Shown piece after piece: positions 40,597 to 45,226 of a DNA stretch of 64,000 bases. Source of the DNA: Desulfofustis sp. PB-SRB1 (GTDB taxonomy: Bacteria; Desulfobacterota; Desulfobulbia; Desulfobulbales; Desulfocapsaceae); NCBI GenBank assembly GCA_016722945.1, contig JAEQMT010000010.1:761765-825764 (forward strand), read 5' to 3'. Each line of letters starts with the position of its first letter. Position 1 is the stretch's first letter. Below the pieces are notes generated by a model. That model was not told the origin of the DNA. It made no database searches and worked only from the letters and a program-made list of their open reading frames with translations. Made by a program: the position numbers and the translations under genes.

Positions 40597-41262
40597 CTAG
40601 CCTTCCAGTACCGCCTCTTTGAAGGTGTCGAGGCCGATGCGGTCGATGAATTTGGCGGTACGCTCTTTTTTCTTGGCGTGTTCGCAGTAGTAGTCGAAGC
40701 AGCGGTCCAGCAAGGCCTTGACCTCGTCACCGGTGAGTCCTTCGCCGAGGATATCGCCGGCCCGCGGGGCACGGGTGGAGCTGCCGCCGAAACTCACCGT
40801 CCAGCCCGATTTTTTGCCGACAATACCCACATCGCGCACGTTTGATTCGGCGCAGGTAAAGGGGCAGCCGGAGACGCCGATCTTTACCTTGGCGGGAAAA
40901 TCTCGGGTGCTGAAGTACTCTTCCAGGTGAATGCCCAGTCCCAGCGCATCCTGAACGCCGAACTGGCAGACCTCGGTGCCGGGGCAGGCCTGGACGTAGT
41001 GGAGGCAGAGCTCGGTGGCCTTGCCGGGGTCCATACCGAGATCGCGCCAGATATCGTCGAGCTGGTCAAGTTTCATCCCCACCAGGGCGATACGCTGACC
41101 CGAGGTGATCTTGACGATGGGAATCTCATATTTTTCCACCACCGTGGTGATGTTTTGCAGCATGGTGAGGTTCATCAGGCCGGCGGGGATGCGCGGCACG
41201 ATGGCATAGCTTTGCTTGTCTCGTTGCAGAATTGATCCGGCAGGGACGATCGGTTGGGCCAT
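40597..41262 (-). CDS. Assimilatory-type sirohaem sulfite reductase (small, single-subunit)
   Basis: 221-residue protein matching the small low-spin sulfite reductase known from sulfate reducers such as Desulfovibrio. The sirohaem and [4Fe-4S] ligands are C93 and C99 (CPGTEVC) and C133 and C137 (CPFTC). Residues 1-65 form the ferredoxin-like repeat with NITTVVEKYEIPIVKITSGQ. The ATG at 41262 follows a GGAG site; a frame to 41316 adds 18 residues. Its cellular role in these bacteria is debated, since dissimilatory DsrAB does the bulk reduction. An ATACC/GGTAT palindrome lies upstream. Confidence 0.85.
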   Translation of the reverse strand: MAQPIVPAGSILQRDKQSYAIVPRIPAGLMNLTMLQNITTVVEKYEIPIVKITSGQRIALVGMKLDQLDDIWRDLGMDPGKATELCLHYVQACPGTEVCQFGVQDALGLGIHLEEYFSTRDFPAKVKIGVSGCPFTCAESNVRDVGIVGKKSGWTVSFGGSSTRAPRAGDILGEGLTGDEVKALLDRCFDYYCEHAKKKERTAKFIDRIGLDTFKEAVLEG

Positions 41263-41339
41263 GGTAAACTCCGTATGTGCTGTTGGTTTATGGGGGTTAA
41301 TCCGGTTTATCGGCACTAATATAGGTGACAGGGAAAATC

Positions 41340-42397: not shown

Positions 42398-43345
42398 CTA
42401 GAATACCGGTTTGTAGTCGAAGAAGTGTCTTGTTTCCAGCTTGCGATAGGTTTTGGTTTCAGCGCGGGCGATAAACGAGCTGGTAACCGCGCCGTTGGCG
42501 GTAAAGCGGACACCTTCGAGAAATTCCCCATCGGTGACCCCGGTGGCGGCCAGGGCGACTTCCCGTGAGCCGATCAGGTCCTGAACCTTGAATATCTTGT
42601 CGAAATCGGTAATGCCGAAGGCGGTGGCGCTCTCCCGGTCGCGATCGTTTTCGTAAAAAATCTTGCCTTCGAAATAGCCTCCCAAACAGTTGATGGCGGC
42701 GGCCACGAAGGTTCCTTCCGGGGCATAGCCGTAGCCCAGATAGATATCTGTTTTCTCACCGGTAATGGCGGAGAGACAGCCGGAAAGCTCGCCCTCGTCA
42801 ATGAGCTTGATCCGTGCTCCGCATTGGCGCACCTCTTTGATAAGGCTCTTATGACGGGCATGATCGAGCATGCAGACGGTGACGTTTTCGGTGTATTTAC
42901 CCAGCGCACGGGCCACCCGCTTGACGTTGACCACCGGCGGCTGGTTGATATCGACCACACTGCCGACCTCCGGTCCGACAACGATTTTATACATGCTCAG
43001 GTTCGGCACTTTCTGGATAATGCCTGACGGGGCGATGACCGCGTAAGAGGTCGCGTTGTTGCCGCCGGCGGCGGCACTGTGATGCGCCTCCAGGGCAATG
43101 GCCATAACATCCATGGTGGGGCCGCCGCTGCCAAGTGTTGCCGGCATGGGGTCGATGTCGGGCACGCCGGGAAACCGATCGTTGATTACCACCCCGTCTA
43201 TTTTCAGGCGGTTCAGGGTCTTGGCAATGGCGCCCCGGGCGTAGTTGAGCAGTTGCCGATGGTTGCCCAGCCCCTGATACCTGGCCGCGGTAAGGGCGGC
43301 AATCTCGGTGGCGCGAACGATTTCCATGCCGTAGTTGGTATCCAT
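42398..43345 (-). CDS. GlpX-family (class II fructose-bisphosphatase-like) protein with degenerate metal site
   Basis: 315-residue homologue of GlpX. The C-terminal half is clear: ARHKSLIKEVRQCGARIKLI, YAPEGTFVAAAINCLGG, ATGVTDGEFLEGVRF. In the N-terminal half the GlpX motifs that bind metal are altered: the position of GEGExDEAPMLY reads NDRFPGVPDIDPMP, and DPxEGT reads IALEAHH; the early KNTAD aspartate is also absent. Of the five metal ligands of the E. coli enzyme only two glutamates (in ALEA and APEG) seem kept. It starts 3 bases after a class III fructose-bisphosphatase gene. Ordinary FBPase activity is doubtful; a regulatory or altered-substrate role is inferred. Confidence 0.75.
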   Translation of the reverse strand: MDTNYGMEIVRATEIAALTAARYQGLGNHRQLLNYARGAIAKTLNRLKIDGVVINDRFPGVPDIDPMPATLGSGGPTMDVMAIALEAHHSAAAGGNNATSYAVIAPSGIIQKVPNLSMYKIVVGPEVGSVVDINQPPVVNVKRVARALGKYTENVTVCMLDHARHKSLIKEVRQCGARIKLIDEGELSGCLSAITGEKTDIYLGYGYAPEGTFVAAAINCLGGYFEGKIFYENDRDRESATAFGITDFDKIFKVQDLIGSREVALAATGVTDGEFLEGVRFTANGAVTSSFIARAETKTYRKLETRHFFDYKPVF

Positions 43346-43348
43346 TTC

Positions 43349-45226
43349 CTACCCCTTTCCCGACAATGGAGTCAGTAGCTCATTATGGGCTTCATTGGCC
43401 AGTTCCCTGATTTTATCCATAAGCTCGTCACGCTCTCTGGCAAGAGCGGTGCCTTCAGCCGTATCCTTTACCTTCATGGGTTGCATGAATTCATCAATGA
43501 GCTCAATGTCCAGCGGTACCGATTCCAGGGTGCGCTCGGCCTCTTTGATCTCGTCGGGAGTGGGTAAGATAATGCCGTAGAGCTGGTGCGGGGTGTGTAC
43601 CAGGGAGTGGCCCCGGTTGTAGTAGGCGGCCGCAAAACCGCCATCCACGTTGATTGCCACCCCATCCTCGCTGGCCATATGCTTGCCTTTGAGGTAGTTG
43701 ACCGGGGTATGGCCGTATACCACCCGTTTGACTCCAAATTCTTTGAGCAGATTTTCCTTGAAGTTCTGATTGGCAAGATTTGATTGCCAATAGAGGGTGT
43801 GCTCGACGTGGCTATCCTTGTCGATGAGAAAATAGCGCTCAAACGTTTTCATGGCATGCTTGCCGAAAAACGGAGAGCGCGGCCCGCACCAGAGGTAGAA
43901 GAACAATGCCTGATCTTCCTTCCGCTGCGGCGCCCCGGTGAGGTAGTTATGGCCCACCCGGTCGATAACTTGCTGGATATAGTCGAGCAGGCCGCGACCC
44001 CGGTGGCCGAGAAACTGCTCGAAATGGCCATCTTCGGTGGTCGGCACCAGGGCGTGGATATTTAGAATATTGGAGTAAAGCGAATAGGTTTTGCCAAAGC
44101 TGAACAGATAACCCAAAAGCCGCATGAGCTTTTTGTTGGTGGTGAATTGAGCCACCAGATCATCGATGACCTCCTGCTCCGCGCCGGAGAGCTGCTGGGG
44201 GTTTTGGTAGTCCAGGGTGGGGAAATAGGTGTCGTTAAGGCCGTCTGTATTGCCGCCGGCGAGCATCTCGGCAAGTCGGTCCAGCCAGCACCGATCAGCC
44301 ATATCATACTCAGGAAAATCGGCGATGGTCTGTTCTTCGAGTTTGAACTGGATGATCGCCAATGCCTTTTCCATGGCACGGCCACGCTCGGTTTTGGCCT
44401 TGAATTTTCCGGTCACCTTGTCGGCCGGGTAGGTGGCAGCGGCAAAATCGCTCAATGTGGTGATATCAAAACCGAGTCGATCCATGAACTCGAAATGGTC
44501 ATAACGAAAGGTGATTCGCATCGCCTCGGCGACCAGCGATCTGTTGCCCGACGCCGCCCCCATCCATAAGATATCGTGGTTACCGAAGACGTAATCGACG
44601 ATGCGGCGATACGGCATGGAGGAGATGATCCGCAGGATCTTATCAGGCTGCGGCCCCCGGTCAAAAACGTCGCCCAGCACCTGGATGCGGTCCAGCAGGA
44701 CGTTGCGGATCGCCATGCAGAGATGGGTGATGAGCCGGGCGGTAATTACCTCTTCTTCAAAAATCTGGTTGGGCAATGATGATCCCGCCAGCATGCGGCC
44801 GATGGTATCCTGAAATTCAGGCAGCAGAACATCTTCCAGCCGGTACCGGATATTGGTGAGTTTATACTTGAGCACCTGGCCGAGACAGAGAATGACGTCC
44901 TGGGTATCCATGCGCATGGCCGGATCAGCAATGTACTGCTGTTTTCTGATGATGCGCACCAGGTACTGAATCTTGTCTGGGGTAAATGTGTTGGGCAGGG
45001 CCTCCCGACAGGTCTGATACAGCACCCCGAAGCGCCCGCGCAGGATAGACTTGAACCGATCACCCTCGCCGTGCAGGTCGCTGATCCACAAGGTTGTCGG
45101 GATGTTGGAGTTGAGTTCGGTCTCGATCTCAAGAAGGCGCTGCACCAACTCATCGACTTCGCGTACCTTGATCAGTTCGTTTTTCTTGGTGCGGCTTTTG
45201 GTCGCGGTGGCGGATGGGCTCTTCAT
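43349..45226 (-). CDS. fbp: Class III fructose-1,6-bisphosphatase
   Basis: Gluconeogenic hydrolysis of fructose 1,6-bisphosphate by the large calcineurin-like enzyme known mainly from Firmicutes. Motifs: [39 protein letters not shown] and [12 protein letters not shown]. The ATG at 45226 follows ctGGAGc and gives 625 residues; the frame is open to 45277 with a GTG. It is the first gene of a pair with the GlpX-like gene, 3 bases apart, and diverges from the alpha/beta hydrolase gene. Confidence 0.92.

Follow-up and report, generated by a model that had tools for sequence, protein, structure and literature searches.

A GlpX homologue without canonical catalytic residues accompanies a divergent class III fructose-bisphosphatase homologue in Desulfobulbales and Spirochaetota

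A catalytically dead protein that serves a live enzyme as its obligate partner is exemplified by the prozyme of trypanosomatid AdoMetDC, a dead paralogue of the enzyme it accompanies. The gene pair described here resembles this case in that a seemingly dead protein is kept as the probable partner of a live enzyme, but the two partners are homologous in the prozyme system, whereas here they have unrelated folds associated with the same reaction. The closest described systems for the individual proteins are the fructose-bisphosphatases (FBPases) of class II (GlpX) and class III. According to a structural report on class II FBPase, the main metal is bound by Asp84 with Glu57 nearby, Thr89 is the nucleophile, a second metal is bound by Asp116 and Glu214, the sugar is contacted by an R-x-R pocket and a DGD motif, and a D61A mutant is inactive (PMC10289334); in E. 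coli numbering, used hereafter, the published sites are E57, D85, T90, D117, E213, K164/R166 and D186-G187-D188. Bacillus subtilis possesses FBPases of type II and of type III, which a study cited in PMC4535450 is reported to have found functionally equivalent (PMC4535450). The present locus shares with B. subtilis the presence of both families in one genome (class II, YwjI/GlpX, and class III, both matched as controls), but differs from the equivalence reported there in that the GlpX-like protein has lost its catalytic residues. A search of the open-access literature, with most subscription journals outside its scope, yielded no paper in which a degenerate GlpX is paired with a class III FBPase.

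The locus lies in a 64,000-nucleotide stretch of Desulfofustis sp. PB-SRB1 (contig JAEQMT010000010.1), referred to as the window, and its features are compiled in Table 1. We coined the name class III-b for the divergent clade of class III FBPases to which the upstream gene belongs. An earlier sequence-only reading had described a GlpX-like frame beginning 3 bases past a class III FBPase frame and homologous to GlpX over its whole length; both frames were recovered at the positions listed, and the Pfam profile PF03320 matched the GlpX-like protein with 307 bits (cut-off 27) over residues 4-307. The NCBI equivalog profile for glpX, TIGR00330, gave 193.8 bits and thus stayed under its cut-off of 259.3. 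PF03320 and PF06874 each match once in the window's genome, and profile search found no match to class I Fbp in it. The AlphaFold model of the GlpX-like protein (pLDDT 93.6, pTM 0.91) was matched by Foldseek to 6ayv with a TM score of 0.91 (E 6e-37), and all 24 PDB chains matched at E ≤ 0.001 were class II FBPases. The protein thereby shares full-length homology, a predicted fold (TM ~0.9) and many structural positions with class II FBPases (7js3, 6ayv, 2r8t), but is without the ligands D33, D85 and D117 and the nucleophile T90, and its GEGE loop is replaced.

Table 1. Features of the gene pair, with positions in the window.
Feature	Position	Strand	Remark
GlpX-like gene	42398..43345	-	315 aa; GlpX fold without canonical metal site and catalytic threonine
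Class III-b FBPase gene (divergent PF06874)	43349..45226	-	625 aa from ATG; presumed catalytic partner
Intergenic gap	43346..43348	-	3 bases, from class III-b stop codon to GlpX-like start codon
GlpX-like residues 55-65 (NDRFPGVPDID)	43151..43183	-	replaces GEGExDEAP metal loop
GlpX-like residues 83-89 (IALEAHH)	43079..43099	-	replaces DPxEGT(T) metal and nucleophile motif
Class III-b residues 50-52 (DLH)	45071..45079	-	first phosphoesterase metal motif
Class III-b residues 185-191 (GDVFDRG)	44654..44674	-	phosphoesterase motif
Class III-b residues 215-218 (GNHD)	44573..44584	-	phosphoesterase motif

Comparison with E. coli GlpX revealed the exchanges D33 to L, GEGExDEAP to NDRFPGVPDIDP, D85 to I, T90 to H and D117 to N, with E88 (E86 here) and E213 (E210 here) retained, and thus bore out the reading that both metal motifs, GEGExDEAP and DPxEGT, are replaced and that the early aspartate of KNTAD is missing. 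We take D33 and E59 to be metal ligands in GlpX as well. E. coli E57 falls opposite D56, an invariant acidic residue, in one alignment and opposite R57 in another. Across the 74 rows of the window's clade, D33, E57, E59, D85, T90 and D117 were all at 0% and D61 at 18%, with E88 at 100% and E213 at 99%. The position of D85 is taken by I or V and that of the nucleophile T90 is variable (H in 49%, also Y, Q and C); replacement acidic residues in the metal site, which would have spoken against a pseudoenzyme, were looked for, and no new invariant carboxylate was found in place of D85. A coordinated replacement of metal ligands by histidine was likewise considered and rejected, as the HH pair (residues 88-89) varies (YH, YR, QH, HR, CK). 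Within the clade 17 positions became near-invariant; invariance is complete for D56, R57, E86, N115 and E186 and almost complete for E184 and E210, and because D56, E86 and E186, together with E184 and E210, are acidic residues conserved to this degree, the GlpX-like protein may have kept some residual metal binding. A second, unrelated altered GlpX, nested among canonical ones in the tree, was observed in three genomes (L135 in G507, L137 in G435, L141 in G232); it partly retains GEGE and keeps D85, with T90 replaced by P, S or A and E213 by Q, and these genomes have no PF06874 or PF00316 matches.

The class III-b protein of the window was matched by PF06874 with 345 bits (cut-off 27) over residues 24-604, compared with 835-1020 bits for ordinary class III FBPases. 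It shares this profile and intact phosphoesterase motifs with the class III FBPase of the B. subtilis Fbp type (9a7j), but is only ~30% identical to ordinary class III, falls outside the ordinary clade in a sister clade of its own and is tied to a GlpX homologue. In a quick tree the class III-b proteins of both phyla studied formed a single clade (support 100, 41 of 55 rows). The metallophosphoesterase motifs D-H, GDxxDRG, GNHD, H and GH are intact and invariant in the alignments examined. For the AlphaFold model (pLDDT 84.4), the sole PDB match obtained with Foldseek was the integrative model of class III FBPase 9a7j (TM 0.77). From these motifs and from the exchange with class I Fbp described below, we infer that class III-b is an FBPase.

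The sequence-only reading had named conserved linkage in other genomes as a decisive point, and linkage was found wherever it could be observed in the window's clade. Of 159 relatives in named genomes the best 80 were retained, and 72 of these were GlpX-like loci with room upstream, the remaining eight being two loci at contig ends (L094, L112) and six distant homologues (L104, L107-L111). All 72 testable loci carried class III-b upstream on the same strand, with a gap of -4 to 243 bp in 71 of them (median 20; 116 bp in L078); in L074 the class III frame is broken. Cultured holders of the pair include Desulfofustis glycolicus DSM 9705, Desulforhopalus singaporensis DSM 12130, D. vacuolatus DSM 9700 and Desulfoprunum benzoelyticum DSM 28570. 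Two loci titled SAR324 cluster (L093, L100) also hold a linked pair at 65-67% identity in genomes of 6.7-7.8 Mb, which may be mislabelled or may have received the pair by transfer.

Flanking genes were considered as further parts of the module and rejected: SBP genes occurred in 6, sulfite-reductase-like genes in 18 and hydrolase genes in 13 of 74 loci, and DUF2007 and LysE neighbours in none of the 74, all counts coming from flanks that are often cut by contig ends. The small nitrite/sulfite-reductase-like protein near the pair in the window (40597-41316, minus strand) belongs to the group with relatives in 18 loci; the gene directly follows the GlpX-like gene in L047 and L057.

Profile searches in 144 Desulfobulbales genomes, i.e. 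the window's own genome and its relatives, revealed PF06874 over cut-off in 66 and PF03320 in 67, with 66 genomes common to both. None of the 144 had class III-b without a GlpX homologue, and the only genome with PF03320 alone (G029) contributed a 134-aa fragment running to a contig end. Class I Fbp at ≥200 bits was present in 69 genomes, just one of which (G138) also had the pair, and ten genomes had neither the pair nor class I Fbp at this threshold. A weak class I-like match accompanied the pair in three further genomes (G018, G059, G082; 149-152 bits) and occurred without it in G031; these four matches scored 149-156 bits, compared with ~230 for the usual class I of the order. The expectation that the two FBPases of the pair should be redundant was not borne out, since 62 of the 66 pair holders had no other class I-III FBPase over cut-off, save an extra ordinary class III in two genomes. 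Both of these extra copies score 916 bits (G002:C704, L153; G075:C118, L154). Based on the 66 shared genomes and the near-exclusion with class I Fbp, the profile data indicate that the pair acts as one unit replacing class I Fbp.

Three of the distant homologues titled Spirochaetes/Spirochaetota (L107, L109, L111) were degenerate GlpX proteins from genomes with class III-b on another contig, and three others (L104, L108, L110) were canonical GlpX proteins from genomes without class III-b. In a sample of 247 genomes from the phylum of L109, PF06874 scores were bimodal, with 33 genomes at 835-1020 bits and 40 assigned to class III-b, 21 of them by tree and the rest by score (38 at 343-394 bits and two in pieces). 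The other matches comprised one partial ordinary protein, a 29-bit fragment and two proteins at 466-490 bits (L258 in G555, L259 in G542), which represent a third PF06874 type on a long branch beside ordinary class III. GlpX homologues were present in 81 of the 247 genomes, and 52 were read at the catalytic positions, the 29 unread ones being the fragments of G728, the homologues of six genomes with scores of 223-247 bits and those of 22 genomes scoring ≤121 bits. All 37 GlpX proteins read from class III-b genomes were degenerate, all 13 close homologues from genomes without class III were canonical, and the two from genomes with ordinary class III (G627, G551) retained GEGE and DPVEGT. No GlpX was found in two class III-b genomes (G731, G737) of 1.7 and 1.5 Mb, which are probably incomplete, and class I Fbp occurred in 2 of the 40 (G629, G604). 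In all 37 pairs the two genes lie on different contigs, and because of this the co-occurrence is not a matter of operon hitch-hiking, a cause that we rejected; linkage, invariable at the testable loci of the window's clade, thus gives way to unlinked co-occurrence in the second phylum.

Spirochaetota also lost the catalytic positions, in a pattern of their own: among 37 rows of degenerate GlpX, D33, T90 and D117 were at 0%, E57 at 3%, E59 at 16%, D61 at 8%, D85 at 38%, E88 at 27% and E213 at 70%. Both clades have lost 7 of 9 catalytic positions versus 17 of the 109 remaining conserved ones (p = 1.8e-4); when the window's clade was taken by itself, the respective values were 7 of 9 and 47 of 109 (p = 0.048). 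The earlier description of persisting sugar-phosphate motifs applies to the Spirochaetota proteins, which keep R164 and DGD in 100%, R166 in 76% and Y119 in 73%, and less well to the window's clade, where DGD has become EGE, R164 is found in 28% and R166 in 91%, and Y119 is absent. The window's protein itself has H at the first basic residue of the 6-phosphate pocket, the position that is R in those 28%. The retained Spirochaetota pocket suggests fructose 6-phosphate (F6P) or fructose 1,6-bisphosphate (FBP) as ligand; because the sugar contacts changed in the window's clade too, the ligand there may differ and no longer be F6P or FBP.

Relatives of the GlpX-like protein are 63-83% identical, compared with 58-75% for the class III-b partner, and at least 100 intact full-length copies have reading frames that are open end to end. 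The median dN/dS (Nei-Gojobori) was 0.103 for GlpX-like and 0.126 for class III-b genes, calculated for GlpX-like from 56 locus pairs with dS < 1.2, which are not independent. In Spirochaetota, degenerate GlpX genes gave 0.17 (58 pairs) versus 0.045 (12 pairs) for canonical GlpX. These ratios indicate that purifying selection on the GlpX-like gene is strong, yet somewhat relaxed, because the Spirochaetota degenerates reach ~4 times the value of canonical GlpX there.

PF06874 exceeded the cut-off in 4 of 395 genomes of the window's phylum, two from the window's own family and two from another family, f55 (G185, G220). In the latter, class III-b was accompanied by canonical GlpX on other contigs (L132 and L261 in G185, class III-b at 338 bits; L140 and L262 in G220, class III-b as a 57-bit fragment). 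Family f55 is possibly a breach of the rule, or possibly an ancestral or intermediate stage in which class III-b stands beside a live GlpX; under both readings, class III-b is accompanied by a GlpX homologue in 2 of 2 genomes. In a GlpX tree including E. coli the two degenerate clades were separate, and with long rows left out a weakly supported branch (78) set the degenerates apart together. Because the trees differ with the rows included, both readings stand: the degenerate GlpX proteins may have one origin with transfer, or two origins. The pattern may accordingly rest on one or two evolutionary events, and the genome counts are not independent trials. Fisher p values for the co-occurrence were set aside, as they class the unread weak GlpX homologues as non-degenerate and take related genomes to be independent.

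On balance, we lean towards the view that the two genes encode a two-component FBPase in which the GlpX-like protein is a non-catalytic, obligate partner of class III-b. Class III-b would carry the working phosphoesterase site and hydrolyse fructose 1,6-bisphosphate, while the GlpX-like protein would no longer catalyse and would most likely bind the class III-b enzyme. The remaining sugar-phosphate pocket could tune class III-b to metabolites, or the GlpX-like protein could stabilise the enzyme, and the module would perform the gluconeogenic FBPase step in lineages without class I Fbp. The GlpX-like protein would be retained because class III-b needs it, a need suggested by its occurrence alongside class III-b at linked and unlinked loci alike. 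The effect of the GlpX-like protein on class III-b may be activation, inhibition or stabilisation, all three being compatible with the sequences. Of the initial proposal of a pseudoenzyme that senses a sugar phosphate, the first half agrees with the loss of catalytic residues in a gene kept by selection, and sensing accords with the contacts kept in Spirochaetota, but less so with those altered in the window's clade; the GlpX-like protein may, as also proposed, directly regulate the class III enzyme. More tentatively, and with less confidence than in the partnership as such, we suggest that the GlpX fold became an obligate regulatory subunit of a non-homologous FBPase, kept as sensor or assembly subunit once class III-b had displaced GlpX as catalyst, perhaps twice independently, with f55 representing a stage at which both were catalytic.

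Several other explanations have to be weighed against this partnership. The GlpX-like protein could instead be an enzyme with a rebuilt active site that catalyses a new sugar-phosphate reaction in the same pathway as class III-b, as the invariant D56, R57, E86, N115 and E186, the near-invariant E184 and E210, the 17 positions that gained near-invariance and the strong purifying selection would allow. We regard this as unlikely, given that main-metal D85 has become I or V, that the nucleophile position varies with no invariant replacement, and that Spirochaetota lost the same positions differently and variably; a new reaction also leaves unexplained why the losses track class III-b. Somewhat more doubtful is a sensor or regulator whose target lies elsewhere, in transcription or in another enzyme, its tie to class III-b being co-regulation only. 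The tight operon of the window's clade and the pocket retained in Spirochaetota would suit such a role, but co-occurrence persists with the genes on different contigs, and apart from the contig-end fragment of G029 no GlpX-like gene lacks class III-b in the 144 Desulfobulbales genomes.

To our knowledge, ordinary class III FBPase needs no partner, and this weighs, together with the full phosphoesterase motif set of class III-b itself and the canonical GlpX of f55, against a composite active site in which GlpX-like residues would reach into the class III-b catalytic centre. Such a site would account for a GlpX homologue accompanying class III-b in 66 of 66 Desulfobulbales, 38 of 40 Spirochaetota and 2 of 2 f55 genomes, and we nevertheless consider it very improbable. 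A GlpX-like gene in decay, left over from a replaced FBPase, would fit the lost catalytic residues and the Spirochaetota dN/dS above that of canonical GlpX; this pseudogene reading was rejected and is hardly credible in view of a dN/dS of ~0.10, the intact copies, a conservation exceeding that of the partner and the high-confidence fold.

If the proposed partnership is true, unrelated isofunctional enzymes can be combined into a single machine in the course of a replacement, the superseded one not being deleted, and such merging would be a route to allosteric control. It would also alter how gluconeogenesis is annotated in Desulfocapsaceae and many Spirochaetota, where database names would count two FBPases and there may be one. 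Automatic annotation based on PF03320 would label the GlpX-like protein as an active FBPase.
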